Assembly (NCBI GenBank): GCA_036377595.1
Contig: DASUYB010000133.1
Span: 1-64,000 of the forward strand
Length of the DNA stretch: 64,000 nt
Source of the DNA: Longimicrobium sp.
GTDB lineage: Bacteria > Gemmatimonadota > Gemmatimonadetes > Longimicrobiales > Longimicrobiaceae
Direction: 5' to 3'
In this document: positions 39,475 to 56,120 of the stretch, piece by piece
Numbering within the stretch: the stretch's first letter is position 1
Layout: each line of letters begins with the position of its first letter
Made by a program: the position numbers and the translations under genes
The notes under the pieces: model-generated
The model's input: only the letters and a program-made list of their open reading frames with translations
What the model was told of the DNA's origin: nothing
The model's database searches: none

Positions 39475-42078
39475 TCAACCCCGGCGGAAGATGCGGCGGT
39501 AGCCGCCGGCGATCAGCGCGGAGACGTCGGCCATGATGCGCGGGAGGTTGAGCCCACCAGGATACGCCAGGTATCTCGGCTCCCACTGCGGGTGGAATTT
39601 CTCCTTGTAGAGCCGCAGCCCCTGGAAGTTGTAGAGCGCGCCGCCGCGCTCGAACAGCCAGTTGCCCATGCGCGTCCACACCGGGGCCACGGCGCTCATC
39701 TCCAGCCCGGAGAGCGGCGCCATCCCCAGGTTGAAGCGCCGGTAGCCCTGCTCCTTCCCCCACAGCATCACCTGCAGCAGCAGCACCTCCATCACGTTCT
39801 TCGGCGCGGTGGAACGGTAGCGCATCAGGTCCACCAACAGCTCCGTCCCGTCCGCCCCCGGCCACACCGTCGCGAAGGCCTCCACCCGCCCCTCGCTCTC
39901 GATCACCGCCACGGGAAAGCGGCGGACGAACCCCTCGTCGAAGAAGCCGAGCGAGAAGCCCTTCTCCGCCACCGCCTTGTGCGCCAGCCAGTCGGCCGAC
40001 ACGCGGCGGATCTCCGGCAGCACCGCCTCCACCTCGCCGCGCGGGACGATGCGGAAGCGCATCCCGCTGCGCGCGAAGCGGTTGAGCACCAGCCGCAGCG
40101 GCTTCCGCTCGGCCCCCTCCAGCCCGAACGCGTCCAGCGAGACGAAGGCCTCTTCCCCCAGCTTCACGAAGGTGAGGCCGAAGTCGGCGTACTGGTGCAG
40201 CCGGTCCTTCCCCACCTGGTAGAACACGGGGATGCCGCCGAAGTCGTCGCAGCGGCCGAAGAACTGGCGGATGAGCGCACTGGTGCACGCCGGGTCGCCG
40301 ATGGGGTCGCCCAGCGCCACCCACGTCTTCCCCTGCACGCCGTACATCAGGAACGCCTCGCGGCCGGGGCTGAAGAGCAGGCTCTTGTCCCCGAGGTAGA
40401 CGAGATACGGCTGCGTGTGCGGCTGCGCGGCGACGAGCGTCCCCGCGTCCTCCAGGTCCTCCTGCGACGGCTGCACGACCTCGGGCGGCGCGGGGCGCAT
40501 CAGCCGCAGCACACCGAAGGCGAGGAGAGCGACGAACGCGCCCACGGAAGCGCGGAGGAAGCGCGGCGCGTCGGCGCTGGCCGCGAAGCGCCACCACAGC
40601 TCGCTGCTGTACTCCACGTGGCGGAAGGCGAAGAACCCCAGCCAGATGGACGCGCCCACGACGGCCACCACGGAGGCGAACCAGCCGGGGGAGAAGCGCG
40701 CGGCGAAGAAGGCCGCGCGCCGGTCGAACGCCGGGCGGCTGACGCCGAGCGCGGCGAGGAGCGCGGCGAGGAAGAAGGCTTCCTCGTAGTCCACGCCCTT
40801 CAGCAGGCTCGCCGCGATCCCCAGCGCCAGCGCGCCGCCCGCCACGTACCAGGCAAAGCGCAGCCGCCGATAGACGCCGTTGGAGATGAACAGCAGCCCC
40901 ACGCCGAGGACCGATCCCAGGAAATGCGAGGTCTCGATGACGACGAGGGGGATGTAGCGCGCCAGCCAGTGCACCCGCTCGCGCTCCACGGGCGTGGCGC
41001 CGGAGAGGAGGAGGACGACGCCCGCGAGGAAGGTGAAGACGGCCAGCACCTTCGGCGTCACCTGCCCGGTCAGCGCCCCGAACGCGCCGCCGATGCGCGC
41101 CAGCGCGTCCCTGCGCAGCCGCAGCTCGTCCGCCACGAGGAAGATCAGCGCGAGCGCGAGGGGGACGAGGTAGTAGATCAGGCGGTAGAGGAGGAGCGAC
41201 GACACCAGCTCCGCGGGGACGCCGTAGCCGCGCAGCAGGAACGCCATCGTCCCCTCGAACACCCCCACGCCGCCGGGAACGTGGGAGATGAGCCCCAGCA
41301 GCTGCGCGGCGATGAAGGCCGACAGCACCTCGGCGAAGTCCAGCCCCGTGTGCGGGATGATGACGTACAGCACCGCGCCCGCGAGCGCCCAGTCCACCGT
41401 GCTGAGCACGAACTGCAGCAGCACCGTCCCCGGCGGCGGGATGGGCGCGCGGAAGCCGCCCAGCTTCACCGGCTTGCGCCAGAACACCGCCGCCAGCAGG
41501 TACGCCGCGGCGATCACCAGCATCAGCGCGCCGAGGGCGTGGACGACGAAGGGCCCGAGGAGCGAGACGATGTCGGGGTGGGGGTCGAACGCCATGCTGT
41601 AGCCGCCCAGCACCAGCAGCCCCAGCCAGAACGTCCCGTTGTAGAAGATGATGATGCGGGAGATGTCGCCCGCGGTGAGCCCCCAGCGCGAGTAGAAGCG
41701 GTAGCGCACGCTGGTGCCGCTGATCACCGCCCACCCCACGCTGTTGCTGATGGCGTAGCCGGTGAACGAGGCCAGCGCCACCTTCCACCACGCCTGCTTG
41801 CGCCCGATGTAGCGGAAGGCCAGCAGGTCGTACAGGCAGAGCACCGCGTAGTTCAGCAGCGTGAACGCCACCGCCCACCAGAGCGCGCCGTGCGGGAGCG
41901 ACTTGAGGGTGGCGCGGATGGTGGCGTAGCTCACGCGCCGCAGGTCCGCCTGCAGCACCGCGATCCCCGCCGCGAACAGCGCCAGCGCGATCAGCGGCTG
42001 CACCCAGCGCCACACGCGCGAGCGGGTGCCGGCGTCGGACGCGGGCGGTTCGGCGGACGGCGCGGTCGGATCGGTCAC
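39475..42078 (-). CDS. mprF: MprF-like phosphatidylglycerol lysyltransferase
   Basis: An 867-residue membrane protein from GTG 42078; a TTG at 42183 would add 35 unlikely residues. The N-terminal two thirds are a string of hydrophobic helices (flippase part). The C-terminal third is a soluble GNAT-like (DUF2156) domain with WVALGDPIGD, FYQVGKDRLHQYADFGLTFVKLGEEA and NVMEVLLLQVMLWGKEQGYRRFNLGMAPLSGLE. MprF adds lysine or alanine to phosphatidylglycerol and flips it, so the cell resists cationic peptides. No aminoacyl-tRNA partner is needed nearby. Confidence 0.9.
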   Translation of the reverse strand: MTDPTAPSAEPPASDAGTRSRVWRWVQPLIALALFAAGIAVLQADLRRVSYATIRATLKSLPHGALWWAVAFTLLNYAVLCLYDLLAFRYIGRKQAWWKVALASFTGYAISNSVGWAVISGTSVRYRFYSRWGLTAGDISRIIIFYNGTFWLGLLVLGGYSMAFDPHPDIVSLLGPFVVHALGALMLVIAAAYLLAAVFWRKPVKLGGFRAPIPPPGTVLLQFVLSTVDWALAGAVLYVIIPHTGLDFAEVLSAFIAAQLLGLISHVPGGVGVFEGTMAFLLRGYGVPAELVSSLLLYRLIYYLVPLALALIFLVADELRLRRDALARIGGAFGALTGQVTPKVLAVFTFLAGVVLLLSGATPVERERVHWLARYIPLVVIETSHFLGSVLGVGLLFISNGVYRRLRFAWYVAGGALALGIAASLLKGVDYEEAFFLAALLAALGVSRPAFDRRAAFFAARFSPGWFASVVAVVGASIWLGFFAFRHVEYSSELWWRFAASADAPRFLRASVGAFVALLAFGVLRLMRPAPPEVVQPSQEDLEDAGTLVAAQPHTQPYLVYLGDKSLLFSPGREAFLMYGVQGKTWVALGDPIGDPACTSALIRQFFGRCDDFGGIPVFYQVGKDRLHQYADFGLTFVKLGEEAFVSLDAFGLEGAERKPLRLVLNRFARSGMRFRIVPRGEVEAVLPEIRRVSADWLAHKAVAEKGFSLGFFDEGFVRRFPVAVIESEGRVEAFATVWPGADGTELLVDLMRYRSTAPKNVMEVLLLQVMLWGKEQGYRRFNLGMAPLSGLEMSAVAPVWTRMGNWLFERGGALYNFQGLRLYKEKFHPQWEPRYLAYPGGLNLPRIMADVSALIAGGYRRIFRRG

Positions 42079-42200
42079 GCGCGGCGGGGTTGCGGAGTGT
42101 ACGCCCTGCGGTGGGCCGACGAATGTACGCCCGGCGCCGGAGCGGCGGAAGCGGGATGTTCCGCCAGGCTTTGGCGACAGCAATCAGACAAACAGAATGA

Positions 42201-42272
42201 CTCACACGGAGGGAACGGAGGGAACGGAGGATGATGAGCAGTCCTCCGTTCCCTCCGTTTCCTCCGTGTGAG
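42201..42272. repeat. Long intergenic hairpin, CACACGGAG type
   Basis: Arms CTCACACGGAGGGAACGGAGG with complement ending CCGTGTGAG; between divergent genes, minus-strand flank ATTCTGTTTG. Confidence 0.85.
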
Positions 42273-42689: not shown

Positions 42690-43724
42690 TCAGGAGAGAG
42701 ATCCGGCCGCCACGCGCTTGCCGTCTAGGGTGAGCCCGAGTGTGCCCAGCTCCGCCGCCAGCACGGGATCGGCGACACGGATCTGGCCGGCGACGACGAC
42801 GAGCGCGACGTCGTCCTCCGTCGCTTCGAGGACGGGGCGGCGGAAGACGGCGAGGTCGGCGGGGCTACCGACGGTCAGTGAGGGGATCGGGAGGCGCAGG
42901 CGGCGCGCGGCGGTGGCGCCGACGGCGTCGAGGAGGCGGGCGTCGTCCACCAGGCCCGTCGCACGGGCGGCGCGGAGCTCGTCGAGCAGGCTGCCGTCGC
43001 CGCTCAGCAGCGAGTCGCTGCCGAGCAGGACGTCCACACCGGGCGCGAGCAGCTCCGCCGGCGCGGTGCGGCCGAGGAGGAAGGCGTTGCTTGTCGGGCA
43101 CCAGACGAGCGCCGCGCCCGACGCACGGAAGCGCGCGATCCCGTCCGCGTCGGGGCCGACGACGTGGACGGCGAGCAGGTTCTCGTCCAGCAGCCCCAGC
43201 CGGTCGATCTCGCGCACCTCGGCGGCGGAGAGCGCGTCGGTACCCTCGGCCAGGTGGATGGTGAGTGGCCGCGCCGGATCGGAGGGATCGGGCGCGGCCG
43301 CGCGGGTGAGATCGGGCTCGAAGCCGAGCGAGTGCGCGGTGCGGACGCGGGCGACGCGGATGGGGAAGCCGCGCTCGATATCCGGCTCCCACGCGTCGTG
43401 GTGGACGACGGTGGTGACGCCCGCGAGCAGGTTCTTCCACGCGCCGCGCAGCAACGCCTCGCGCCGCGGCACGGCGCGCGCCGCGGCGATCTCGTCCGCG
43501 AAGCGGCGGTGGATGTCGCGGCCCCACTCGTACGCGTTCGGATACGGCCCCGCGCCCAGCCGGCCGTAGTGGTTGCGGTGGAGATGGTCGTGCGCGTTGA
43601 TCAGCCCCGGCCGCACCTCGCCGTCCGGGATGCGCAGCGTCACGTCGAACCGCCGGTCCGCGGGGACGATGACGCCGCCGTCCACCCCCACCGCCACGTT
43701 CGCCGCCTCGATGCGGAAGCGCAT
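42690..43724 (-). CDS. Amidohydrolase-family protein
   Basis: A 344-residue protein. The metal-binding signature is INAHDHLHRNH, with later VTTVVHHDAWEPD, LAVHVVGPDADGI and LLGSDSLLSGDGS, followed by a C-terminal SLTVGSPADLAVFRRPVL. This is an amidohydrolase-superfamily TIM-barrel enzyme, similar to deaminases and guanine deaminase-like hydrolases. GTG-ATG double start; ATG 43724 taken. The substrate is not evident. It is convergent with the small basic gene. Confidence 0.85.
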   Translation of the reverse strand: MRFRIEAANVAVGVDGGVIVPADRRFDVTLRIPDGEVRPGLINAHDHLHRNHYGRLGAGPYPNAYEWGRDIHRRFADEIAAARAVPRREALLRGAWKNLLAGVTTVVHHDAWEPDIERGFPIRVARVRTAHSLGFEPDLTRAAAPDPSDPARPLTIHLAEGTDALSAAEVREIDRLGLLDENLLAVHVVGPDADGIARFRASGAALVWCPTSNAFLLGRTAPAELLAPGVDVLLGSDSLLSGDGSLLDELRAARATGLVDDARLLDAVGATAARRLRLPIPSLTVGSPADLAVFRRPVLEATEDDVALVVVAGQIRVADPVLAAELGTLGLTLDGKRVAAGSLS

Positions 43725-43751
43725 CACCGTGCGCAGGCGCGACGACCGGAA

Positions 43752-43815
43752 GCCTCACGCGGAGACGCGGAGGCGCGGAGTGCTCTCTCCGCGTCTCCGC
43801 GTCTCCGCGTGAGGC
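43752..43815. repeat. Long intergenic hairpin, CACGCGGAG type
   Basis: Arms GCCTCACGCGGAGACGCGG with complement ending CGCGTGAGGC. It lies between the amidohydrolase start and the end of the next operon, both minus strand. The flank CCTTCTGTT resembles other members. Confidence 0.85.
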
Positions 43816-43830
43816 CTTCTGTTCTCGCCA

Positions 43831-44532
43831 TCAGGCGTCGAGAGCGCGGCGGAAGGAGAGGGCGAGGACCACGGGGAGGCCTTCGTCCGCGGCGTAGCGG
43901 TCGAGGCGGCCGGCGGCGGCGTAGAAGGGGCGCAGCTCGGGGCCGATCACCCCGTCGCGCCAGTCGGCCAGCTCCAGCCCGGCGTCCGCCGCCGCGCGGA
44001 CGTGATCGTCCAGCTCGTGGACGTGGTGCTCGATGTCGTGCACCGCGCCGCCTGCGTCGCGGAACGAGCGGGTGTGCCCCGCGCGCGCCGCGTCGGGGTG
44101 GAAGTCGGTGACGACCACCGTGCCCCCGCGGCGCACCACGCGCCCCAGCTCCGCGTACGCCGCGTCGAGCGCGGGGAGATGGCCGACGACCAGGCGGCAC
44201 CACGCGACGTCGAACGTCCCTGCCGCGAAGGGGAGCGCGCGCACGTCCGCGGCGGCCAGCAGCGGGCGCATCGTCTCATCCTCCCGCGCCCCCGCGGCCA
44301 GCATCTCCCAGGTCAGGTCGGCGCCGGCGAGGAGCGCGGCGTCGGCGTGCGCGCGGAGGCGGCGGGCGGTGCCGCAGCCGGCGTCCAGCAGGCGCAGCCC
44401 GGCCGGCGGCGGCGTCAATTCGCTCACCAGCCGGTCGTCCACGAAGCTGATGGCCGTCTCGGCGTCGTAGCTGGGCGCCCACAGGCGGTACGCCTCGCGC
44501 GGGGCGAGCGGCGGCGCGACAGACGTGCTCAC
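43831..44532 (-). CDS. SAM-dependent methyltransferase (class I), last gene of the radical SAM operon
   Basis: A 233-residue protein from GTG 44532, which overlaps the stop of the upstream radical SAM gene by 4 bases (GTGA). Motif I is LRLLDAGCGTARRL; ADVRALPF and RLVVGHLPALDAAYAELGRVVRRGG match later class I methyltransferase motifs. It is a type 11-like small-molecule methyltransferase. The overlapping start argues for a single polycistronic message with 44529-49196. Confidence 0.85.
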   Translation of the reverse strand: MSTSVAPPLAPREAYRLWAPSYDAETAISFVDDRLVSELTPPPAGLRLLDAGCGTARRLRAHADAALLAGADLTWEMLAAGAREDETMRPLLAAADVRALPFAAGTFDVAWCRLVVGHLPALDAAYAELGRVVRRGGTVVVTDFHPDAARAGHTRSFRDAGGAVHDIEHHVHELDDHVRAAADAGLELADWRDGVIGPELRPFYAAAGRLDRYAADEGLPVVLALSFRRALDA

Positions 44533-46052
44533 GCCATCACCGGCTCGGGCGCGGCGGGCGGGCGCAGGTGCCCGTACGCCTGCGTGTCTTCCGGCGCGGT
44601 CTGCGACCAGCGGCGGACGGTCCTCAGCAGCGCGGCGTCGCTGAAATCGCCCTTCTCCCAACGCCTCCGCGCCAGGATCCTGCCGAGCGCCTTCCCCCAG
44701 TCGCGCGTGCGGCGGTCGTGCAGCGAGGGAAAGCGGCTGTCCAGCACCAGCCGGAAGTTCTCCACCCGCGTCCGCAGGCTCCCGTTCATCCAGGGGACGT
44801 GCGGGTCCTCGTGCGTCATCCACTTCACCCACTCCGGCTGCGTCCACTCCTCCAGCGTGTCGGGCGTCATCGACACCGCGTCGACGTTCCCGTACGTCCC
44901 CCGGCGCTGCGGGGTAGGCGTGTAGAAGTAGGTGATCAGCTCCATTGACGGGTTGATCGCCTTCAGCCTGCGGATGAAGCCGAGCGTGGTGTCGATCTCC
45001 GACGCGGGGTCGTCGGGCCCGCCCAGGACGAACGAGAACTCGGGGATGATCCCGTGCTCGCGCGTCCTGGCGGCGATCTCCAGCGTCTGCGCGATCGTCA
45101 GCGTCTTGTTCATCTTCTTCAGCACCTCGTCGCTCCCCGACTCGGCGCCGTAGAACACCATCGTCAGCCCCGACTTCTTCAGCGCGCGCCAGGTGTCGTC
45201 CGACAGCCGCAGCATCAGGTCGACGCGCGCCTCGCACCACCAGCGGATCCCCAGCGGCGTCAGCCGTTCCGCGATCTCCAGCGCGTGGTCTTCCTTGAGG
45301 AAGAAGTTGTTGTCGTAGAAGTGCACGGCGTCCATGCCGTGGTTCTTCACCAGCCATTCGAGGTGCCGCGCGGTGCGCTCCGGGCGCCCCTGCTTCTCGC
45401 GGCTGCCGAACACGGAGATGACCCCGCAGAACTTGCAGCCGTACGGGCACCCGATGGACGCCTGGTACACCCCCGTCCGCCGCCCCAGGAAGGTGGGGAG
45501 GAGGTAGTCGTCGATCGGGATCTTGTGGTACGGGGGATCGGGAAGCTCGTCCGGCCCCACCCACGGGCGCTCCAGGTTGATGCGGTTCTCGCCGGACGCG
45601 TCGCGGTACATCAGCCCGGCGACGGTCTTGGGATCGCGCTCGCCGTCCATCACCTCCAGCAGCTCGCGGAAGGCGTGCTCGCCCTGGCCGCGGATCGCCC
45701 AGTCGATGTAGGGGGCGGAGATCACGGGCTGGGGATAGAGGGAGGGAAAGTTGCCGCCCCAGACGATGGGGATCTCGGGGAAGCGCGCCTTCACCTGCTT
45801 CGTCAGCGGCACGGCGGCGACCAGCTGCGGCCCCGGCATCACGGTGAAGGCGATCACCCGCACCGGGTCCGGCCCCCCGCGGCGCGCCTCGACGTGGCGC
45901 GTGATCTCGGCCAGCGGATCGATGCTGGGGCGGTTGCCGTCCACGATCTCCCACTCCGTCCCCTCCGGCAGCGCGGCGCCGATTGACATCACGGAGAGCG
46001 GGAAGCGGCGGTTCTTCGGTGCGGTGGCCCGCGGGTTCACGAACAGGATCAT
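44529..46052 (-). CDS. B12-binding-type radical SAM enzyme 2
   Basis: A 507-residue protein. The N-terminal Rossmann-like region resembles a cobalamin-binding domain but lacks a DxHxxG motif (DGNRPS instead). The radical SAM cluster motif is CPYGCKFC, preceded by YQASIG and followed by IIPEFSFVLGGPDDP. Such enzymes often methylate unactivated carbon or phosphorus. The start ATG 46052 overlaps the upstream methyltransferase stop (ATGA). The surrounding genes suggest a tailoring role in a biosynthetic pathway. Confidence 0.88.
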   Translation of the reverse strand: MILFVNPRATAPKNRRFPLSVMSIGAALPEGTEWEIVDGNRPSIDPLAEITRHVEARRGGPDPVRVIAFTVMPGPQLVAAVPLTKQVKARFPEIPIVWGGNFPSLYPQPVISAPYIDWAIRGQGEHAFRELLEVMDGERDPKTVAGLMYRDASGENRINLERPWVGPDELPDPPYHKIPIDDYLLPTFLGRRTGVYQASIGCPYGCKFCGVISVFGSREKQGRPERTARHLEWLVKNHGMDAVHFYDNNFFLKEDHALEIAERLTPLGIRWWCEARVDLMLRLSDDTWRALKKSGLTMVFYGAESGSDEVLKKMNKTLTIAQTLEIAARTREHGIIPEFSFVLGGPDDPASEIDTTLGFIRRLKAINPSMELITYFYTPTPQRRGTYGNVDAVSMTPDTLEEWTQPEWVKWMTHEDPHVPWMNGSLRTRVENFRLVLDSRFPSLHDRRTRDWGKALGRILARRRWEKGDFSDAALLRTVRRWSQTAPEDTQAYGHLRPPAAPEPVMA

Positions 46053-46861
46053 GGGACGGTGCACTCCCAGAGGTCGAAGCGCGACGGCGCGCGCCGCCGC
46101 CGGACGAAGGCGACGAGCGGCCGGATCTCGTAGGCCAGCGGATAGCGGACGCGGTGCCGGCGCCAGTGCAAGCCCAGCGGCGCCGACGCGGCGGCGAGCG
46201 AATCCGCGGTCAGGTACTCGATGAACGGCAGCGCGGTGAGCGCGTCCGCGCGCCCGCCGAAGCGCGCCGCGGCGTGGCGGCGCTTCTCCTCCACCATTGC
46301 CCTCCCGTCCTTCTCATGGCGATAGAAGGGCGAGTCGAGGATGACGATGCGCCCGCCCGGCCGAACCACGCGCTTCGCCTCGGCCAGCGCGGCGCGGAGG
46401 TCGAGCGCGTAGTGCAGCGCCGCGTTGAACACGGCGACGTCGAAGCTCGCGTCCGCCGCGGGGATGGCCTCGAAGCTCGCCGCCACCCGCCCGAACAGCT
46501 TCGGGAGATGGGGATCGTACCCGGCGGCGGCGCCCAGCCCGTCGACCGCGTCGTCGCGCACGTCCATCGCCGTCGCCGCGTGGCCGAGCAGCGAGGCGCG
46601 GTAGCAGAGCCAGCCGTTCCCCGCGCCGAGGTCGAGGAGGCGGAGGGGACGTCCTGCCGCGCGCGCCATCGGCCGCAGGACGCGGCGCTCGAACGCGTCG
46701 TAGGTGCGCGAGCGGATGGCCCACTGGCTCGCTGTCGGCCCCTCCGCGAGGTACGGCAGTGCCAGCAACTCGGCGACGCCGCCCGCACCGCGCCCCTCGG
46801 CCGCGCGGTGGGCGCCGTACTCCGCGCGGAAGCGGGCGAGCGCCTCGGCCTGCGCCGTCAT
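46049..46861 (-). CDS. SAM-dependent methyltransferase (class I)
   Basis: A 270-residue protein with motif I LRLLDLGAGNGWLC and post-motif steps DVRDDAVDGLGAA, ASFDVAVFNAALHYALDL and VVRPGGRIVILDSPFY. The N-terminal helical cap is atypical of simple type 11 enzymes. Start ATG 46861 overlaps the upstream stop by 4 bases. Its substrate is unknown; in this operon it probably methylates the pathway product or an intermediate. Confidence 0.85.
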   Translation of the reverse strand: MTAQAEALARFRAEYGAHRAAEGRGAGGVAELLALPYLAEGPTASQWAIRSRTYDAFERRVLRPMARAAGRPLRLLDLGAGNGWLCYRASLLGHAATAMDVRDDAVDGLGAAAGYDPHLPKLFGRVAASFEAIPAADASFDVAVFNAALHYALDLRAALAEAKRVVRPGGRIVILDSPFYRHEKDGRAMVEEKRRHAAARFGGRADALTALPFIEYLTADSLAAASAPLGLHWRRHRVRYPLAYEIRPLVAFVRRRRAPSRFDLWECTVP

Positions 46862-47703
46862 CGCGAGTCCTCCGCCGGCGCGGGCGCGTCCGTCCGCTCC
46901 AGGTGGAAGAGGACGTGGTCGCCCAGCAGCGCGAGCGGCGCCTCCACCGCGCGATCCATCATCTCCAGAAATGAAAGGAGATGGGGATGTCGGGAGATCC
47001 ACGGCTCCGCGGCGCTGGGGGGAACGAAGACGCCGATGCCGCGCGTACGCCGCCGCCGGAACCAGGGCGCGAACGCGCGCGCGATCTCCCGCGGGCGGTG
47101 ATAGCGCACGGTGAACTCGCGCCCGCCCAGCCGCGCGGCCACCTCCCCGCGCGAGAGGCGGCGGAATCCCGCCCGCGGGCGGCCGAGGATCGTCTCCGTC
47201 ACTATCTCCCCCGGCGGGAAGGGGCCGAAGAGCACCAGCAGCGCCGGCGCGCCGGGCCGCAGCAGCCGCGCCAGCCCCCGCGCGACGGGGCGCAGGTCGG
47301 TCACGCAGTTCAGCGCGGCGAAGTTGGAGAACGCGCCGTCGAACGGCACCTCGCCCGCGGCCTCGCGCGCCGCGGCCAGCGCCTCCATCTCCTCCGCGGG
47401 ACACACCTCCGCCGTCGCGGGGGCGGCGCGGCCGGCCAGCTTCCGCGCGGCGATCTCCACCATCGCGGGCGAGGCGTCGGTCAGGTGGACCGAACGCCCG
47501 TGGTCCGCGAGGTACGACGCATCCTCCCCCGTCCCCCCGCCCAGCTCCAGCACGCGCGCGCCGGCCGGGAAGGCGCGCAGCAGTTCGCGCCGCACCGCGC
47601 GGCGCTGGGCCGCGACGCTCAGCCACGCGCCGAAGCGCTCGTCGAACTTCGGCGCCACGGTGTCGAACGCCGCCGCGGCGGGCGGCAGCGCGCGCGTCTC
47701 CAT
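46858..47703 (-). CDS. SAM-dependent methyltransferase (class I)
   Basis: A 281-residue protein with motif I ARVLELGGGTGEDASY, FDGAFSNFAALNCVTDLRPVARGLARLLRPG and a GRPRAGFRRLS insert. The C-terminal region contains RGIGVFVPPSAAEP, common in methyltransferases that act next to radical SAM proteins. The ATG at 47703 overlaps the upstream radical SAM stop by one base. It is the third operon methyltransferase counted from the promoter. Confidence 0.85.
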   Translation of the reverse strand: METRALPPAAAAFDTVAPKFDERFGAWLSVAAQRRAVRRELLRAFPAGARVLELGGGTGEDASYLADHGRSVHLTDASPAMVEIAARKLAGRAAPATAEVCPAEEMEALAAAREAAGEVPFDGAFSNFAALNCVTDLRPVARGLARLLRPGAPALLVLFGPFPPGEIVTETILGRPRAGFRRLSRGEVAARLGGREFTVRYHRPREIARAFAPWFRRRRTRGIGVFVPPSAAEPWISRHPHLLSFLEMMDRAVEAPLALLGDHVLFHLERTDAPAPAEDSR

Positions 47704-49196
47704 CACGCCGGCGCCCCCGCCAGCTCGGGCGCGCGCTCCCCGGGCTCGTCCGCCGTCAACTGTGCCCACACGAGCTCCATCGCCGCGCGGTCGGCGCCGG
47801 GGCGCGCCTCGTCGTGCAGCGCGTCGCGCAGGCGGCGGTAGAAGGCGGTGGAGTAGGTGCCGTGGAAGAGCATCGCCAGGTCGTTGGTGTCGCTCCAGTT
47901 CTGCTTCACCCCCAGCTGCGCCTGCACCTTCTGGTGGAACTTGGTCCCCGGGAGCGGATAGGCCACCGACACGCCGATGTCGTCGGGGCGCTCGTCGCGC
48001 ACCAGGTCGCGCGTCATCAGCACGTCCTCCCACTCCTCGCCGAGATAGCCCAGCTGCAGGAACCAGCAGGCGCGGATCCCGTGCTCCTTGAGCGTCCGCG
48101 TAGCGGTCCGCACCTGCTCGATCGTCGACCCCTTGTCCATCGCGTCGAGGATCTTCTGCGACCCCGACTCCACGCCCAGCCACACCTCCTCGGCCCCGGC
48201 GGCCTTGAGCGCGGCCACGGTGTTGGGGCGCATCAGGTTGACGCGCGTCTGGATCATGAAGGGGATGCGCGCGTCGCGGATGCCGATCTCCTCCGCGAAC
48301 TCGGCGATCCACTCCGCCGTCAGCCCCCAGATGTCATCCGCGAACCAGAGGTGGTCGGGCGCGACGCTCTCCTTCAGCCGGCGGATCTCCTCCGCGGCGC
48401 TGGCGGGCGAGCGCTGGTCGTAGCGGCGGCCGAAAAGGGGCTTCGCGCACCAGTTGCAGCCGTACGGGCACCCGCGCGAGGTCACCACGTTCCACGACAG
48501 CCGCCCGTGCGCCCCGGTCCACGCGCGGCGGTAGACCTCGGCGTCGACCAGGTCCCACGCGGGGAACGGCAGCGCGTCCAGGTCGCGCACGGCCGGACGC
48601 GGCTTGGTCCGCCACGCGCGCGCGTCGCCGTTCGCCAGCGCCAGCCCGGCGACGTCGCCCAGCGGCGCATCGGGGTCGGCGAGCCACGCCTCGGCCAGCT
48701 CGGGAACGCCGCTCTCCGGGTCCCCCAGCAGCACGGCGTCGGCGCCCGCCGCGAGGTAGATCTCCGGGTGGTCGCTGGGGTCGGAGCCGTTGATCACCAC
48801 GCGGGCGCCGGCGGCCTTCGCGGCGCGCACCATCTCCAGCGCCGCCTCGCGCATCCGCAGCGTGCACATCTTCGTGAGGAAGTTGAAGCTGTCCTCGACG
48901 ATGGCCACGACGCGGGGCCGCACCGCATCCACCATCTCCGCGAACTCGTGCGGGCCGGCGGAGAGCATGGCGTCGAACAGGGCGACGCGGTGGCCGCGCT
49001 CGCGCAGCACGGCCCCGGTGATGAGCGTGGCCAGCGGCGAGTAGGGCTTCATCTTCTCGACCTGCTTGGGGTCGAGGAGAAGGAAGTACGAGTGGGCGAC
49101 GAGGATCGGAGCGTTCTGGGCCAACGCGGCCTCCCGGAAGTGGACGGATCGCAAGGCGGTCTTGGAGAACGGTTCCGGCGCGCGGCCGGACATCAT
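47703..49196 (-). CDS. B12-binding-type radical SAM enzyme 1
   Basis: A 497-residue protein with a Rossmann-like N-terminal part (PILVAHSYFLLLDPKQVEKMKPYSP, ARVVINGSDPSDHPEIYLAAGADAVLLGDPE). The radical SAM motif CPYGCNWC follows SRG, and IQTRVNLMRPNTVAAL matches the barrel. It lacks DxHxxG (DAMLSAG). A double ATG at 49196/49193 starts the chain; the frame extends further upstream but without coding sense. It is the first gene of the five-gene operon and faces the glycosyltransferase operon across a 466-base gap. Confidence 0.88.
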   Translation of the reverse strand: MMSGRAPEPFSKTALRSVHFREAALAQNAPILVAHSYFLLLDPKQVEKMKPYSPLATLITGAVLRERGHRVALFDAMLSAGPHEFAEMVDAVRPRVVAIVEDSFNFLTKMCTLRMREAALEMVRAAKAAGARVVINGSDPSDHPEIYLAAGADAVLLGDPESGVPELAEAWLADPDAPLGDVAGLALANGDARAWRTKPRPAVRDLDALPFPAWDLVDAEVYRRAWTGAHGRLSWNVVTSRGCPYGCNWCAKPLFGRRYDQRSPASAAEEIRRLKESVAPDHLWFADDIWGLTAEWIAEFAEEIGIRDARIPFMIQTRVNLMRPNTVAALKAAGAEEVWLGVESGSQKILDAMDKGSTIEQVRTATRTLKEHGIRACWFLQLGYLGEEWEDVLMTRDLVRDERPDDIGVSVAYPLPGTKFHQKVQAQLGVKQNWSDTNDLAMLFHGTYSTAFYRRLRDALHDEARPGADRAAMELVWAQLTADEPGERAPELAGAPA

Positions 49197-49662
49197 TGTC
49201 GCGCTGTCGCGGGGCGGGACAGCTCCCCCGCGCGGATGTGCCACGCCGCGACGGGTGCGGGCGGAGAGGAGACGACGGCCCCGCTCGCGCCCAGGCACGC
49301 AGGGGCCGGGTGCGGGCCGCGCGTCGGTCTCCCCCGACGGAGCGGAGAAAGGAGCCAACTCCTTGTCCGGCAGCCGCTTGGGCTGCCGTGGCGCAGCGCC
49401 GTCCGGGCCGCCGGCGCCTGGATCGGGTCACCTCCGGGCGATGGCCGTTGTCACGGGCATTCGATGTGACGTAGATCGGTTCGAACACCCGAACAAGGCA
49501 ACCGCCGCGCCCGGCACCCTTCCCCCGCCCGCGACCCATGCCCCGCGTCTCCCGCCGACGTAGCAGGCACGTAGCACCTACGGTTCGCGTGCGCGGGGCC
49601 GCCGTCAAGGCTCTTGAAACGTCCGTGGCACGAAGCGGGGTCTCATCGCACGGAAGGGGACG
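49197..49662. other. Divergent intergenic region of the biosynthetic locus
   Basis: No gene of useful length is seen and no riboswitch is convincing. Both operons probably start here. CTTGAAACGTCCGTGGCACG at about 49613-49632 and TTCGAACACCCGAAC at about 49480-49495 are minor candidates for regulatory sites. Confidence 0.4.
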
Positions 49663-50781
49663 ATGCGTGTCGTCCAGGTGAGCTGCCACCGCGATCCGCT
49701 GCGCCGCGGCGGCGCGGAGCTGCTGGAGACGTGGACGGCGCTCCCGCTGGCCGCGCGCGCCGCCGCGGACGCCGGGTGCGACGTAACCGTGGTCCACGCC
49801 GCGTGGCGTGACGAGGAGATCACGCGCGACGGCGTGCGCTACCGCTTCGTGGCCGAGCCGGAGCTCCCTCCGCGCGTTTCCCGCCGCCTCCAGCCCCGCC
49901 TCGTGGCCGCCGTCCGCGCGCTCCACCCCCGCGTGGTGCACCTGCAGGGGATGGGGATGCCGCAGGCGCGCTGGCTGTGCGGCAACGGCGCGGCGGTGGT
50001 GGTGCAGGACCACTCCGAGCCGCCGAAGACCGGGTGGCGCGGCGCGGTGCAGCGCTGGGCGCTGGCGCGGGTCGACGGCGTGCTCTTCACCGCGCGCGAG
50101 CAGGCCGAGCCCTTCTTCGCCGCGGGGGCGCTGCGGGCCGAGACGCCGGTGTTCGAGGTGCTGGAGTCCACCACCGCCTTCACCCCGGGCGACCGCGAGG
50201 CGGCGCGGAGGGAGACGGGGATCGGCGGCGACCCGTGCCTGCTCTGGCTGGGGCACCTCGACGCCAACAAGGACCCGCTGACGGTGCTCGAGGCCGTCGC
50301 CCGCGTCCGCGAACGGCTCCCCGCGCTGCGCCTGTGGATGTGCTACGGCACCGCGCCGCTGGAGGCCGCGGTGCGCGCGCGCCTGGCCGCGGAGCCGGAG
50401 CTGGCCGCGCGGGTGGCGCTGCTGGGGCCGGTGCCGCACGCGCGGGTGGAGCAGCTCTGCCGCGCGGCCGACCTGTTCGTGCAGGGGAGCCGCCGCGAGA
50501 GCTGCGGCTACGCGGTGCTCGAGTCGCTGGCCTGCGGCGCCACTCCTTTGGTGACCGACATCCCCGCCTTCCGCCGGCTGACGCGCGGCGGCGCCGTGGG
50601 CGGCCTCTTCGCGCCGGGCGACGCGGACGGGCTGGCGCGGCTCATCCTGGCCTTCGCCGCGCGGTCGCAGGCGGAGTTGCGGGCGCGGGCGACGGCGCAC
50701 TTCGCGGCGCACCTGTCGCCCGCGGCGCTCGCGCGCGAGCTGGGGGCGGCGTACGCCGCGGTGGCCGGGAGGCGGCCGTGA
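49663..50781 (+). CDS. GT4-family glycosyltransferase 1
   Basis: A 372-residue protein with the GT-B fold pattern. The N-terminal acceptor part is MRVVQVSCHRDPLRRGGAEL. The C-terminal donor part has LLWLGHLDANKDPLTVLEAV and the family E-x7-E-like segment SRRESCGYAVLESLACGATPLV. It should transfer a sugar from an NDP-sugar onto a lipid, peptide or carbohydrate. GGAAGGGGACG precedes the ATG. It is the first gene of a three-gene operon; the second start overlaps its stop. Confidence 0.9.
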   Translation: MRVVQVSCHRDPLRRGGAELLETWTALPLAARAAADAGCDVTVVHAAWRDEEITRDGVRYRFVAEPELPPRVSRRLQPRLVAAVRALHPRVVHLQGMGMPQARWLCGNGAAVVVQDHSEPPKTGWRGAVQRWALARVDGVLFTAREQAEPFFAAGALRAETPVFEVLESTTAFTPGDREAARRETGIGGDPCLLWLGHLDANKDPLTVLEAVARVRERLPALRLWMCYGTAPLEAAVRARLAAEPELAARVALLGPVPHARVEQLCRAADLFVQGSRRESCGYAVLESLACGATPLVTDIPAFRRLTRGGAVGGLFAPGDADGLARLILAFAARSQAELRARATAHFAAHLSPAALARELGAAYAAVAGRRP

Positions 50782-51893
50782 AGGTGGCGATGGTGGTGCC
50801 CGGCGGGGTGGACCGCGGCGGCACGGAGCGGGTGATCCCCGTGCTGCTGGGGATGATCGGCCGGGTGGCGCGCGAGCACGAGCTGCACGTCTTCGCCTTC
50901 CACCAGGAATCGGAGGCGGGGACGTGGCCGCTACGGGGCGCCACGGTGCACAACGCGGGGCGGCCGCGCTCCGCCGCCCGCGCGCTCCGCGACCTGGTGG
51001 CCGAGCACCGGCGCAGGCCGTTCGCGGTGATGCACGGCGTGTGGTGCGGCCCCGGGCTGGTGGCCGCGGCGGCCGGGCGGCTGCTGCGCCGCCCCGCCCT
51101 CGTGCACCTGGTGGGCGGCGACGCGGCCGCGCTCCCCGAGATCGGCTACGGGCTCCTCCGCACCCCCGGCGGGCGGCTGCGGCTGCGCACGGTGGCCGCG
51201 CTGGCCGCGCACCTGACCGCCAACAGCGACTACAACGTGCGCCTGATGGCCGCGCGCGGCGTCCGCGCCGAGCGGGTTCCGTACGGCGTGGGCGTGGACG
51301 AGTGGCCCCCGCTGCCCCCGCGGCGGCGACGCCCCGGCGCGGAGGCGCGGCTCCTCTTCGTCGGCTCGCTGAACCGGGTGAAGGACCCCTGCACGCTCGT
51401 CCGGGGGATGGCCGCGCTCCGCGCCCGCGGCGTGGCCTTCCGCCTGGACGTGGTGGGCGAGGACCTGCTCGGCGGCGAGGTCCACCGCCTGGCGGCGGAC
51501 CTCGGCCTCTCCTCCATCGTCCATTTCCACGGCTTCCTCCCCCAGGCGCGACTCCGGCCGCTGATGGAGCGCGCCGACGCGCTGCTGGTCACCAGCCGCC
51601 ACGAGTGCGGCCCCATCGTGGCGCTCGAGGCGGCGCTCTGCGGCGTGCCCACGCTGGGGACGCCGGTCGGGCACCTGGCCGACTGGGCGCCGGAGGCCGC
51701 CGTCCCCTTCCCCGCAGGCGACGCGGACGCGCTGGCGGAGACCGCCGCCGCGCTGCTGGGCGACGAGGAGCGCCGCCTGCGCGTGGCCTTCGCGGCGCAG
51801 CGGCGGGCGCTGCACGACGACGCCGACCGCGCCGCCGCGCGCGTGCTGGACATCTACCGCGAGCTCACCCGAACCCGGGAGCGCACGTCGTGA
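50778..51893 (+). CDS. GT4-family glycosyltransferase 2
   Basis: A 371-residue protein from GTG 50778, overlapping the previous stop (GTGA). It has VKVAMVVPGGVDRGGTERVIP, LLFVGSLNRVKDPCTLVRGMAAL, LDVVGEDLLGG, and the E-x7-E segment SRHECGPIVALEAALCG. This again is a retaining GT4-type glycosyltransferase. Coupled by overlap to both neighbours. With the first enzyme it probably builds a disaccharide or acts on successive sugars. Confidence 0.9.
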   Translation: MKVAMVVPGGVDRGGTERVIPVLLGMIGRVAREHELHVFAFHQESEAGTWPLRGATVHNAGRPRSAARALRDLVAEHRRRPFAVMHGVWCGPGLVAAAAGRLLRRPALVHLVGGDAAALPEIGYGLLRTPGGRLRLRTVAALAAHLTANSDYNVRLMAARGVRAERVPYGVGVDEWPPLPPRRRRPGAEARLLFVGSLNRVKDPCTLVRGMAALRARGVAFRLDVVGEDLLGGEVHRLAADLGLSSIVHFHGFLPQARLRPLMERADALLVTSRHECGPIVALEAALCGVPTLGTPVGHLADWAPEAAVPFPAGDADALAETAAALLGDEERRLRVAFAAQRRALHDDADRAAARVLDIYRELTRTRERTS

Positions 51894-52885
51894 GTCCCGA
51901 GCCCACCCTCCTGGCCATCCGCCTGGCGCCCGCGCGCCACTTCGCCGCCGTCACCCTGCCCGTGCTGGGGGTGCCGGTGCGCTTCGAGTCCAACTCGCCC
52001 GAGGTGGTGCGGGTGGCCGAAGAGTCGTTCGGGTGGTGGCGCGTGCTGGAGCGCGACCCGTCGCTGAGCGTGGGCGGCGGGCGCGCGTGCATCCGCATCC
52101 GCGTGCGGCCGGGGGGGCGAGGGGTGGGGATGGGATGCGAGGTGGACCACGGCGTCCCCCGGCGCGACCTGCTGATCGTCTCGGGCCCCGCCGTGCGCGG
52201 CTACGCGGATGCGCTGCGGCGCGAGGCCGTGGCCGAGGTGGACGAGGCGCTGGTGGCCGAGGGGCGCCACTTCCGCACGCTGGTGCTGGAGGCGATGGCG
52301 CTGTTCCTGGTGACGCGGCAGGACCGCGAGCCGCTGCACGCCGCGGCGGTGGTGCGTGGGGATACGGCGCTGCTGCTGGCCGCGCCCAGCGGCGTGGGGA
52401 AGAGCACCACGGCCTACGCCGCGCGGCGGGCGGGGTTGAGGGTGCTGGCGGAGGACGCCGTCTTCCTGCAGCTGCGCCCCTTCCGCGTGTGGGGGATGCC
52501 CGGCGCGATGAACCTGCACCCCGCGTCCGCGCGCTTCTTCCCCGAGCTGGCGGGCGTGCCGCCGACGCGGATGGTGAACGGCAAGCACAAGCTGGCACTG
52601 TCGCTGCGCGGCACCGACGGCGCGGCGGAGTGGCCGCTGGCCGGCCCCGTCGGCGTCTGCCTGCTCGCGCGCGGCGGGGAGGCGGAGGTCGAGCGGGTCG
52701 GCGCGGAGGAGATGACGCGGCGGCTGACGTCGGGGCTGGAGCCGGGGTTCAGCCACTTCACGGGGACGATCCGCCCCCGCGTGCGCCGGCTGGTGGAGCG
52801 CGGCGGCTGGCGGATGACGCTCCCCCCGCACCCGGCGGATGCGATCCCCCTGCTCCACCGCATGCTGGACGAGATCGACGCGTAG
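51890..52885 (+). CDS. HPr-kinase-like ATPase (HprK-related)
   Basis: A 331-residue protein from GTG 51890, which overlaps the previous stop. The P-loop is LLAAPSGVGKSTTAYAA near 162-178, with LRVLAEDAVFLQLRPFRVWGMPGAMNLHP after it as in HprK-related kinases. LEAMALFLVTRQDREPLHAAAVV precedes the P-loop. These kinases accompany glycosyltransferase or peptide-modification loci and their substrates are mostly unknown. It lacks PTS partners here, so a role in carbon catabolite control is unlikely. Confidence 0.8.
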   Translation: MSPEPTLLAIRLAPARHFAAVTLPVLGVPVRFESNSPEVVRVAEESFGWWRVLERDPSLSVGGGRACIRIRVRPGGRGVGMGCEVDHGVPRRDLLIVSGPAVRGYADALRREAVAEVDEALVAEGRHFRTLVLEAMALFLVTRQDREPLHAAAVVRGDTALLLAAPSGVGKSTTAYAARRAGLRVLAEDAVFLQLRPFRVWGMPGAMNLHPASARFFPELAGVPPTRMVNGKHKLALSLRGTDGAAEWPLAGPVGVCLLARGGEAEVERVGAEEMTRRLTSGLEPGFSHFTGTIRPRVRRLVERGGWRMTLPPHPADAIPLLHRMLDEIDA

Positions 52886-52924
52886 GGCCGGCCACCGAAA
52901 ACTCAAGTATCCAAAACAGAAAGT

Positions 52925-53007
52925 CTCACGCAGAGTTAGCAGAGTCAGCAGAGAACTGCAGTTTCCTGCAGCTTTTTCTCTGCTAACCCTGCTAACTCTG
53001 CGTGAGA
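52925..53007. repeat. Long intergenic hairpin, CACGCAGAG type
   Basis: Arms TCTCACGCAGAGTTAGCAG with complement ending CTGCGTGAGA; between convergent operons, with flanks CTTTCTGTTTT (minus) and AAGTCTTTTAG (plus). Confidence 0.85.
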
Positions 53008-53023
53008 TCAAGTCTTTTAGAAT

Positions 53024-55693
53024 CTACATCCCCGACCCCGTCATCCTCGGCCGCACCTGGGCGAGGACGCCGGGGACGTCGTCGGCCAGCACCACCGCCA
53101 GCTCGCCCTCGCCCAGCAGCGAGAGGGCGCGCGCGACGGCGTCGGCCTCGGTCTCCACCTGCTCGATCTGGTCGCCGCGCAGGCCGGCCTCGCGCAGCCC
53201 CTCCACCAGCAGCCCGGCCACCTCGCCCGGACGGCGGCCGCGCAGGTCGTAGTCTTCCTTGACGATGGTGTAGTCCAGCCCGCTGCAGAGCGCCGCCACC
53301 GCGCGGATGTCCTCGTCGCGCCGGTCGCCGGGGACGGCGATCACCCCGATGCGGCGGCGCGCGGGGATGTCGGCCACCATCTGCATCAGCCCCGCGACCG
53401 CGGCGGGGTTGTGCGCGTAGTCGACCAGCACGCGGGTCTCGCCCACGCGCAGCAGGTTTAGGCGGCCGGGGGTCATCGACGGGCTGGGGAAGAACGACAG
53501 CAGCCCGGAGCGGATGGTGTCGTACCGCACCCCCTGCACGTACGCGGTGGCGATGGCGGCCAGGATGTTTCCCTGCTGGAAGCGCGCGGCGCCGCCCATC
53601 ATCAGCGGCACCTCGTTCACCCCGGCGATGGGGATGCGCAGCCGGCCGCGGCGGATCACGAACGTCCCCTCCTCGATCCGCGCCCCGATCCCCCCGCGCG
53701 CGATGTGCTCCTCGAACTTCTCGTTCCCGCCCTCCGGCATCACCGAGAAGAAGACGATGTCGGCCCCCGTGCGGTCGCGCATCGCGTAGACCAGCGGGTC
53801 GTCGGCGTTCAGCACCGCGTGCCCCTCGCGCTTGACGACGGCGGGGATCACCGCCTTCACCTCCGCCAGCTGCTCCAGCGTGTTGATCCCCCGCAGCCCC
53901 AGGTGGTCGGCCGAGACGTTGAGGACCACGCCCACGTCGCACTCGTCCCACCCCAGCCCCGCGCGCAGGATCCCGCCGCGCGCCGTCTCCAGCACCGCCA
54001 CGTCCACCGTCGGGTTGGAGAGGATGATGTTGGCGGAGAAGGGGCCGGTCATGTCGCCCTCCATCACCAGCCGGTTCTGGAGATAGACGCCGTCCGTCGT
54101 GGTGAACCCCACCGTCTTCCCCGTCTGCCGGAAGAGGTGCGCGGTGAGACGGGTGGTCGTGGTCTTCCCGTTCGTTCCCGTGATGGCGATGACGGGGATG
54201 GTGTAGCCCGCGCCCGGCGGGTAGAGCATGTCGATGATCGGCGCGCCCGGGTTGCGCGGCTTCCCCTCGGTGGGATGCGTGTGCATTCGCAGTCCCGGCG
54301 CGGCGTTGACCTCGATGATCACCGCCCCGTTCTCGCGGAAGGGAACGGAGATGTCGGGGGAGAGCACGTCGATCCCCGCGATGTCGAGCCCCACGATCCC
54401 CGCCGCCATCTCGCACGCGGTCACGTTGTCGGGATGGATCTCGTCCGTGCGGTCGATCGACGTCCCGCCGGTCGACAGGTTCGCCGTCGCGCGGAGATAG
54501 ACCTGCGCCCCCGCCCCGGGGACGGAGTCGAGCGAGAGCCCGCGCGTGCGCAGATAATCCTCCGTCACCCCGTCGCTCGGCAGCCTTGTGAGCGTCTTGG
54601 TGTGCCCCCGTCCCCGCCGGGGGTCGCGGTTGGCCTCGTCGATCAGCGCGCGGATGGAGCTGCGCCCGTCGCCGATCACGTGCGCGGGCACCCGCTCCGC
54701 CACGGCGACGAGCCTCCCGTCGACGACCAGGATACGGTAATCGCGCCCGCTGACGTACTGCTCGACCACGACGCGGCGCCCGTACGCACTGGTGACCGGC
54801 CAGGCGGCGCGCACCGCCTCCTCTCCGTCCAGCCGCCCGGAGATGCCGCGGCCGTGGCTGGCGTCGAGCGGCTTCAGCAGCACGGGGTAGCCGATCTCGC
54901 GGGCCACCTCGATCGCCCCGTCGAGCGTGGACGCCGTGTCGCCCTGGGGGACGGGGAGGCCGATGTTGCCGAGGACGCGGCGCGTGTCGTCCTTGTCCTG
55001 CGCGATCTCCACCGCGATGGCGCTGGTGTAGTCGCTCATGGCGGCCTGGATGCGCCGCAGGTTCTTCCCCAGCCCCAGCTGGACGAGGGAAAAGGAGTTG
55101 AGGCGGCGGACGGGGATGCCGCGCCGCACCGCCTCGTCCACGATGGCGGCGGTGGACGGGCCCAGGCGCACGGCCTCGAGCAGGTCGTGCAGGTCGTGCA
55201 CGGTGCCGTCCACGTCGAACGGCTCGCCCGCGATGCAGGCGCGCACCAGGCGGACGGCGTCGCGCACCGCCTGCATCCCCACGTCCTCCTCCTCGTAGGC
55301 CACGATCAGCCACCACACGCCGGGGTCGCCGCTCTCCACCACGCGGCCGAAGGAGACGTCGCACCCGGCCAGCGTCTGCAGCTCCAGCGCGACGTGCTCC
55401 AGCACGTGGGGGAGATGCGTGCCTTCGTGGAGGCGGGCGAGGAAGCCGCCCTCGCCCGGGCGCGAGCAGGGATGGTCGCGCAGCGTGGGGACCAGCTCCA
55501 CCAGCCGTTCGTTGAAGCCTGGGAGGTCGGTCGACGGGACGTCCTCGAGCGCGCCCAGCGTCAGGTCGCAGGCGATGACGGGGGCCAGGCGCCAGAAGTT
55601 GGGCCCGCGCAGCGGCCGCAGCCGCGAGATGCGCAGCTCTTCGGGGTCGAAGGCGGCCAGGCCGGCCGCGGACTGCGTCTGTGTGTCGGACAT
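53024..55693 (-). CDS. cphA: Cyanophycin synthetase
   Basis: An 889-residue protein with CphA architecture. The N-terminal region is followed by an ATP-grasp domain (GYPVLLKPLDASHGRGIS, NAAPGLRMHTHP). A C-terminal Mur-ligase domain holds the P-loop GTNGKTTTTR near residue 505, VLNVSADHLGLRG and VLVDYAHNPAA. It polymerises aspartate and arginine into cyanophycin storage granules. A matching cyanophycinase lies at 60312-61208. The start at 55693 lacks a strong ribosome-binding site. Confidence 0.93.
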   Translation of the reverse strand: MSDTQTQSAAGLAAFDPEELRISRLRPLRGPNFWRLAPVIACDLTLGALEDVPSTDLPGFNERLVELVPTLRDHPCSRPGEGGFLARLHEGTHLPHVLEHVALELQTLAGCDVSFGRVVESGDPGVWWLIVAYEEEDVGMQAVRDAVRLVRACIAGEPFDVDGTVHDLHDLLEAVRLGPSTAAIVDEAVRRGIPVRRLNSFSLVQLGLGKNLRRIQAAMSDYTSAIAVEIAQDKDDTRRVLGNIGLPVPQGDTASTLDGAIEVAREIGYPVLLKPLDASHGRGISGRLDGEEAVRAAWPVTSAYGRRVVVEQYVSGRDYRILVVDGRLVAVAERVPAHVIGDGRSSIRALIDEANRDPRRGRGHTKTLTRLPSDGVTEDYLRTRGLSLDSVPGAGAQVYLRATANLSTGGTSIDRTDEIHPDNVTACEMAAGIVGLDIAGIDVLSPDISVPFRENGAVIIEVNAAPGLRMHTHPTEGKPRNPGAPIIDMLYPPGAGYTIPVIAITGTNGKTTTTRLTAHLFRQTGKTVGFTTTDGVYLQNRLVMEGDMTGPFSANIILSNPTVDVAVLETARGGILRAGLGWDECDVGVVLNVSADHLGLRGINTLEQLAEVKAVIPAVVKREGHAVLNADDPLVYAMRDRTGADIVFFSVMPEGGNEKFEEHIARGGIGARIEEGTFVIRRGRLRIPIAGVNEVPLMMGGAARFQQGNILAAIATAYVQGVRYDTIRSGLLSFFPSPSMTPGRLNLLRVGETRVLVDYAHNPAAVAGLMQMVADIPARRRIGVIAVPGDRRDEDIRAVAALCSGLDYTIVKEDYDLRGRRPGEVAGLLVEGLREAGLRGDQIEQVETEADAVARALSLLGEGELAVVLADDVPGVLAQVRPRMTGSGM

Positions 55694-56056: not shown

Positions 56057-56120
56057 ATCACACGGAGGAAATGGAGGAACTCAGGTCAGTCCTCCGTTCC
56101 CTCCGTTTCCTCCGTGTGAT
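56057..56120. repeat. Long intergenic hairpin, CACACGGAG type
   Basis: Arms ATCACACGGAGGAAATGGAGG with complement ending CCGTGTGAT, between two minus-strand genes. Confidence 0.85.

Follow-up and report, generated by a model that had tools for sequence, protein, structure and literature searches.

A cassette of two B12-type radical SAM enzymes, three methyltransferases and partner genes in Longimicrobium sp., with a predicted role in sugar tailoring

Genes of the cassette in Longimicrobium

The DNA analyzed here is a 64,000-nucleotide stretch of Longimicrobium sp. (contig DASUYB010000133.1; referred to below as the window), and our subject is a set of five genes at positions 43831-49196 that code for two radical S-adenosylmethionine (SAM) proteins and three methyltransferases. 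All five lie on the minus strand: rS1 (47703-49196, 497 amino acids), MT1 (46858-47703, 281 amino acids), MT2 (46049-46861, 270 amino acids), rS2 (44529-46052, 507 amino acids) and MT3 (43831-44532, 233 amino acids). MT3 starts with GTG and the other four genes with ATG. The rS1 and rS2 products are B12-binding-domain/radical SAM proteins, with the cluster motif CPYGCNWC at residue 243 and CPYGCKFC at residue 202, respectively, and MT1, MT2 and MT3 are class I SAM-dependent methyltransferases. As read from the sequence, rS1 and MT1 overlap by 1 base (TGATG), MT1 and MT2 as well as MT2 and rS2 by 4 bases (ATGA in each case), and rS2 and MT3 also by 4 bases (GTGA). A preliminary description of this DNA had given these coordinates, gene order, strand and overlaps of 1-4 bases, all of which agree with the sequence. 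The five genes are real but are only the core of a larger cassette. The earlier reading missed the downstream amidohydrolase gene AmHyd (42690-43724, minus strand, 344 amino acids), a cassette member in relatives, and three genes located upstream of the core and divergent from it on the plus strand, namely two GT4-type glycosyltransferase genes, GT1 (49663-50781, 372 amino acids) and GT2 (50778-51893, 371 amino acids), and an HprK-like kinase gene (51890-52885, 331 amino acids).

Many B12-type radical SAM enzymes have no assigned function. The Radical_SAM domain was detected with 73.5 bits in rS1 and 65.0 bits in rS2 (Pfam cut-off 29.5). A B12-domain-like N-terminus had been proposed for both proteins, and the B12-binding domain PF02310 indeed exceeds its Pfam cut-off of 32.1 bits in rS2 (45.8) and, barely, in rS1 (33.4). 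A motif check bore out the further observation that both proteins have CxxxCxxC and neither has DxHxxG. Among relatives, CxxxCxxC is kept in 82 of 82 rS2-family and 72 of 72 rS1-family proteins, while DxHxxG in the first 200 residues occurs in none of the former and in one of the latter. By their domains, rS1 and rS2 are members of the radical SAM superfamily with an N-terminal B12-binding-type domain, as in class B, and cobalamin use is only predicted.

AprD4 is the top solved-structure match of the sequence profiles of both proteins (E 2e-29 for rS1 and 7e-19 for rS2). The folds nearest to the AlphaFold model of rS1 (mean confidence score, pLDDT, 88.5) are AprD4 (Z 30.0), OxsB (28.6), MgmA (26.9) and TsrM (26.0), each over more than 370 residues. 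The likeness to AprD4 extends over the whole length of rS1 (426 residues, 22% identity), as do the fold matches to the other three, and all four share with rS1 the two-domain layout and CxxxCxxC. At about 20% identity, however, rS1 differs from AprD4 and the class B enzymes. The cut-off of the AprD4 family NF033070 (500 bits) was not reached by rS1 (70.5) or rS2 (62.1), nor was that of any other named NCBIfam radical SAM family compared (BchE, HpnJ, MJ_0865, ApyD, PhpK and others), the best being BchE with 125.1 and 102.7 of 481 bits. According to a section of PMC5461906, AprD4, the radical SAM diol dehydratase of the apramycin pathway, dehydrates paromamine, and GenK and GenD1 carry out cobalamin-using C-methylation of aminosugars.

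The preliminary description had predicted a heavily C- or O-methylated product. On the side of the methyltransferases this is plausible: all three are intact at the family level, scoring above the Pfam cut-offs of the generic class I domains Methyltransf_11/25, and sequence-profile comparison places MT3 nearest to the D-glucose O-methyltransferase 6uv6 (E 1.5e-10). Since the structure nearest to rS1 is a dehydratase and not a methylase, however, methylation by the two radical SAM enzymes cannot be taken for granted; the modelled rS1 fold would allow methylation or another radical reaction. Some cassettes, moreover, do without certain methyltransferases (MT1 and MT3 in L034, MT2 in L040).

Linkage in relatives and movement between phyla

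We searched 146 genomes of the order for rS1 and rS2 at E 1e-50 and for MT1 at E 1e-30. The three genes were detected in 11, 8 and 10 genomes, respectively, and in all eight rS2-bearing genomes rS1 and MT1 are on the same contig as rS2. Two genomes have rS1 and MT1 and no rS2 at this threshold; in one (G132) the contig stops just past MT1 and in the other (G006) the genes are on two contigs. A third genome (G119) has only a weaker relative of rS1 and an MT2-like gene. At the same thresholds, none of the three genes was found in the nine other genomes of the genus to which the window belongs. Across the phylum, rS2 is present in 17 of 395 Gemmatimonadota genomes at E 1e-80. The cassette is, then, patchy within Gemmatimonadota.

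Gene content was compared in 21 close loci from 20 genomes, G006 giving two; the count excludes L031 and L041, whose contigs are, judged by length, those of L023 and L018, and also the diverged L025, L026 and L027. The core genes are present in most of the loci (rS1 in 19, MT1 in 19, MT2 in 17, rS2 in 18 and MT3 in 18), as are AmHyd and HprK (18 each). GT1, GT2 and a nucleotidyltransferase gene of the NTP_transf_5 family were counted 13 times each (the NTP_transf_5 gene of L018, found by Pfam, was missed in this count), an ATP-binding cassette (ABC) exporter seven times and a SPASM radical SAM gene three times. Gaps in the core affect MT1 and MT3 in L034, MT2 in L040 and rS1 in L029, and in L033 both MT3 and AmHyd are absent within the stretch examined. 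Eight further gemmatimonadotal stretches contain the same genes, though one of them (L148), on a contig as long as that of L038, is probably the same locus as L038 and another (L149) is partial. In the finished genome with locus L142, eleven genes follow each other on one strand in the order HprK-GT2-GT1-AmHyd-SPASM-MT3-rS2-MT2-MT1-rS1-NTP5, and then comes a bacterial sugar transferase gene. The case for conserved linkage of these genes as a set is strong. The earlier view of the five core genes as one functional unit also withstood the synteny comparison: the genes are linked elsewhere, and their linkage is kept across families, classes and phyla.

The genome scan with rS2 retrieved at least 80 loci. 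Among the matches listed, those from Sphingomonas, Caulobacter and further Alphaproteobacteria have an rS2 that is 63-68% identical and the same neighbours, and diverged cassettes with an rS2 of 34-43% identity come from Chloroflexota, Acidobacteriota, Bacteroidota, Elusimicrobia and Nitrospirillum, where varying sets of rS1, MT1, MT2, MT3, AmHyd and SPASM genes are found. Many of the rS2 loci lack most of the cassette partners, so rS2 alone has other settings too. Four clusters from Acidobacteriota and Chloroflexota (L055, L059, L089 and L100) are denser in B12-type radical SAM genes than the window, with at least three each instead of a pair (rS1-like, rS2-like and a third family).

An rS2 tree was built from 25 rows; L048 and L022, for which there was no usable gene call, were left out. 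The rows from Alphaproteobacteria group together in a single clade (98/97), nested within a clade of 13 rows (100/98) that also contains three gemmatimonadotal rows. The rS1 tree (26 rows, made by a quick method) likewise has a single alphaproteobacterial clade (99), with a support of only 90 for the nesting. The direction of transfer is probable, not certain, because the outgroup attaches by a long branch. A tblastn search for rS2 in a plasmid collection gave no match at 1e-40. Taken together, the sequence comparisons show an accessory cassette that moves horizontally, en bloc, between phyla.

Amidohydrolase, kinase and flanking features

The Amidohydro_1 domain of AmHyd scores 50.0 bits (Pfam cut-off 25), and the protein keeps HDH, H109, HxxE (H157 and E160), H187 and D237 in columns that are invariant in 24 sequences. 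The folds nearest to its model (pLDDT 93.1) are the adenosine/methylthioadenosine (MTA) deaminases 4gbd, 4f0s, 4f0r, 4dyk and 4dzh (Z 32.4-33.4 over 320-324 residues), and those of isocytosine deaminase and triazine hydrolases are nearly level (Z 30.4-31.2). In sequence, the N-terminal half is nearer to triazine hydrolase, and in the profile alignments to 4dyk, 4gbd and 4dzh the ribose-binding region falls in an unaligned stretch. AmHyd shares the metal-ligand and HxxE residues with the MTA, S-adenosylhomocysteine (SAH) and adenosine deaminases but is shorter (344 versus about 435 residues), and with 23.6 bits it falls below the cut-off of 522 of the 5′-deoxyadenosine deaminase model NF005557. 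PMC6302742 cites a 5′-deoxyadenosine deaminase as possibly recycling the radical SAM by-product; by analogy, AmHyd might clear this by-product in the manner of such a deaminase.

The 106-base gap between MT3 and AmHyd, which several relatives do not have, houses a palindromic element without strand assignment (43739-43828) whose 42-nucleotide arms are 86% complementary. Including this one, four long, near-perfect palindromes with arms of 21-42 nucleotides and similar repeat units are situated in intergenic gaps of the window (42201-42272, 43739-43828, 52924-53007 and 56057-56120); they resemble members of a single hairpin family dispersed between genes. No sigma-70-like promoter was found at 43000-53100, and no Rfam family, cobalamin and SAM riboswitches included, reached its gathering score in the window or in six relatives scanned.

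In the HprK-like proteins, a His-Lys-Asp-Asp motif is present in most of 16 aligned copies. The window copy keeps the His, the P-loop Lys and one of the two Asp residues, with Glu-Asp in place of Asp-Asp. A sequence search retrieved no solved relative of this protein; its 32.6 bits and the at most 39.2 bits of three relatives are below the cut-off of 200 of HprK-related kinase A (TIGR04352), and the SynChlorMet ScmC model gave 18.5 bits at a cut-off of 125. The nucleotidyltransferase slot is filled in close relatives by NTP_transf_5, whose genes in the window genome are on other contigs. In distant cassettes, a protein without a Pfam match lies nearby, and a nucleotidyltransferase-like signature was recognized in it by eye only.

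According to parts of PMC9266682, lasso-peptide kinases have the His-Lys-Asp-Asp motif in common, and PsmK and PsmN put phosphate and hexose on pseudomycoidin. The cassette resembles such kinase/nucleotidyltransferase systems (PadeK, ThcoK, PsmK/PsmN) in the His, Lys and Asp-Asp residues of most kinase copies and in the NTP_transf_5 partner of 13 of the 21 close loci. It differs from phosphorylated-lasso systems in that neither a lasso cyclase nor a precursor was seen in it, and in the Glu-Asp of the window kinase. A lasso-peptide-like set does occur in the window genome, on contig C112 (L122, 4703-10822), where asparagine synthase, HprK-like, methyltransferase-like, NTP_transf_5 and ABC exporter genes are found; considered as a candidate for the cassette described here, it was rejected as a separate set on another contig.

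Two further genes of the window are noted for completeness. A gene for a full cyanophycin synthetase (53024-55693, minus strand; 1110 bits at a cut-off of 850) adjoins the HprK-like gene, and 39475-42183 codes for a large multi-membrane protein whose C-terminal domain was named by eye as MprF-like (lysyl-phosphatidylglycerol synthase).

The product of the cassette

Polysaccharide genes, identified by Pfam, adjoin a number of cassette copies. Poly_export, Wzz/GNVR, Bac_transf, flippase and Wzy_C flank L019; Wzy_C, Poly_export and Wzz flank L029; Wzy_C and Bac_transf flank L032; polysaccharide dehydratase, reductase and UDP-GlcNAc 2-epimerase genes flank L033; and dTDP-sugar-type enzymes and Poly_export flank L144. 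A pyruvyl transferase adjoins L038, a flippase L054 and Wzy_C L050; the Wzy_C score at L030 is below the Pfam cut-off. The cassette thus resembles Wzx/Wzy-type polysaccharide loci in that several copies adjoin Poly_export, Wzz, Bac_transf, flippase and Wzy genes, but none of these genes is beside the window copy, and to our knowledge B12-radical SAM enzymes are not a defining feature of Wzx/Wzy loci. Near two gemmatimonadotal cassettes there is an arylsulfotransferase-type protein (L019, 13159-14589; L124, 7564-8634), hinting at sulfated products.

The association with export genes was compared with chance by mapping every Poly_export and Bac_transf gene of 20 genomes and applying a distance limit of 25 kb. 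G010 and G052, with contigs of about 5 kb, were left out; contig identity was confirmed by length in 8 of the 12 genomes reached via loci, and the other four (G147, G153, G154 and G155) were scored negative. In six of the 20 genomes at least one such gene lies within the limit, versus 1.08 expected (simulated P 0.00045).

The explanation we favor, and give about an even chance of being right, is that this mobile cassette tailors a sugar: its enzymes would produce a methylated and perhaps rearranged sugar unit of a glycoconjugate that is exported or sits at the surface. The cassette is read as acting on a sugar because it contains two GT4 glycosyltransferase genes, because AprD4, which acts on paromamine, is the top match of both rS1 and rS2, and because MT3 is nearest to a D-glucose O-methyltransferase; it is read as serving a surface glycan because export markers are enriched near it and polysaccharide genes are beside several copies. 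The cassette would comprise about 9-11 genes, i.e., rS1, MT1, MT2, rS2, MT3, the amidohydrolase, two GT4 and the HprK-like kinase, to which many relatives add NTP_transf_5, the SPASM radical SAM and the ABC exporter. The glycosyltransferases would put sugars on a carrier, and rS1 and rS2 would perform radical chemistry on a sugar, either C-methylation or a dehydration/rearrangement of the AprD4/OxsB kind. MT1-3 would place O- or N-methyl groups, the kinase and the nucleotidyltransferase may make a phosphate or phospho-sugar link in a PsmK/PsmN-like manner (as for pseudomycoidin), and the amidohydrolase may either deaminate an intermediate or remove the SAM by-products SAH and 5′-deoxyadenosine. 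The presumed outcome is a methylated glycan or glycoconjugate at the cell surface or in the medium.

Several observations weigh against this explanation. In 14 of the 20 genomes, that of the window included, no Poly_export or Bac_transf gene lies within 25 kb, and the window genome's own export genes sit on other contigs. Compared with solved structures, MT1 and MT2 gave generic matches only, and none of the curated named-family cut-offs compared was reached by rS1, rS2, MT1-3, AmHyd or HprK. The combination of kinase, nucleotidyltransferase and ABC exporter recurs in the lasso-like cluster of the same genome, so these three are not sugar-specific. The product, finally, is only predicted.

A possible, though doubtful, alternative is that the genes serve to make and export a small, freely diffusing natural product (an aminoglycoside-like or nucleoside-like pseudo-oligosaccharide) rather than part of a polymer or surface structure. 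The closest folds of rS1, AprD4 and OxsB, both come from antibiotic pathways, AmHyd resembles nucleoside deaminases, an ABC exporter is present in seven of the 21 close loci, and no polysaccharide export genes lie near L034-L037 and L048, copies from Sphingomonas. The enrichment of export markers near the cassette, however, speaks against such a product, and no typical antibiotic scaffold-forming genes were recognized in the proteins scanned.

Modification of a ribosomally synthesized and post-translationally modified peptide (RiPP), in which B12-radical SAM and SPASM enzymes methylate or cross-link a precursor that the HprK-like kinase and the nucleotidyltransferase then phosphorylate and glycosylate, seems improbable to us. 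HprK-like kinases and nucleotidyltransferases do modify lasso peptides, as parts of PMC9266682 report, and the RiPP radical SAM families to which rS2 shows sub-threshold similarity include ApyD and rSAM_ocin_1. The preliminary description had suggested looking for a precursor gene beyond the window; the search, in which open reading frames of 20-130 amino acids around 19 close loci were clustered, revealed no conserved candidate; the groups present in at least three of the 19 loci were rejected since by position they look like antisense or shadow readings of flanking genes or lie in the Sphingomonas flank. An unlinked precursor would escape this search. No asparagine synthase turned up in the gene calls flanking the cassettes.

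Tailoring of a membrane lipid (hopanoid-like or ladderane-like), with the glycosyltransferases supplying a sugar head group, is very unlikely: the sub-threshold matches of rS1 and rS2 do include HpnJ, HpnR and the ladderane-associated rSAM_ladder_B12, but all of these score far below their cut-offs (HpnJ, for example, 104.4 of 577.6 bits), and squalene cyclase, fatty-acid and acyl-carrier genes were not seen beside the copies scanned. Bacterial genomes commonly pack genes tightly, yet the notion of five unrelated housekeeping enzymes overlapping by chance is practically dismissed by distribution and synteny, i.e., by linkage kept across phyla, movement as a block and the absence of rS2, at E 1e-80, from 378 of 395 genomes of the phylum, which means that rS2 is not a housekeeping gene.

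The enzyme families themselves are already known; their combination matched nothing in the literature searched. Open-licence literature contained no match for a gene cluster of B12-type radical SAM, HprK-like kinase, nucleotidyltransferase and glycosyltransferase genes, nor for a cobalamin-dependent radical SAM enzyme with polysaccharide or exopolysaccharide biosynthesis and methyltransferases, also together with an amidohydrolase, nor for ring contraction by the radical SAM enzyme HpnJ, which is weak evidence of absence. A more detailed proposal, unlikely to be right in all its parts, is that of an as yet undescribed cross-phylum class of cassettes in which a lasso-type kinase/nucleotidyltransferase anchors a phosphate-linked sugar, two B12-type radical SAM enzymes C-methylate or ring-rearrange it, three methyltransferases cap it and the amidohydrolase clears SAM by-products. 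Gemmatimonadota, Alphaproteobacteria, Chloroflexota, Acidobacteriota and Bacteroidota would then have a radical-built sugar in their surface glycans.

Two B12-type radical SAM enzymes are thus placed in a defined, movable gene set together with their partners, and since this set is present in cultured genera (Sphingomonas and Caulobacter), substrate and product become approachable by gene deletion. If the proposed role in surface glycans is true, the radical C-H chemistry that antibiotic pathways are known to perform on sugars would extend to the cell envelopes of several phyla.

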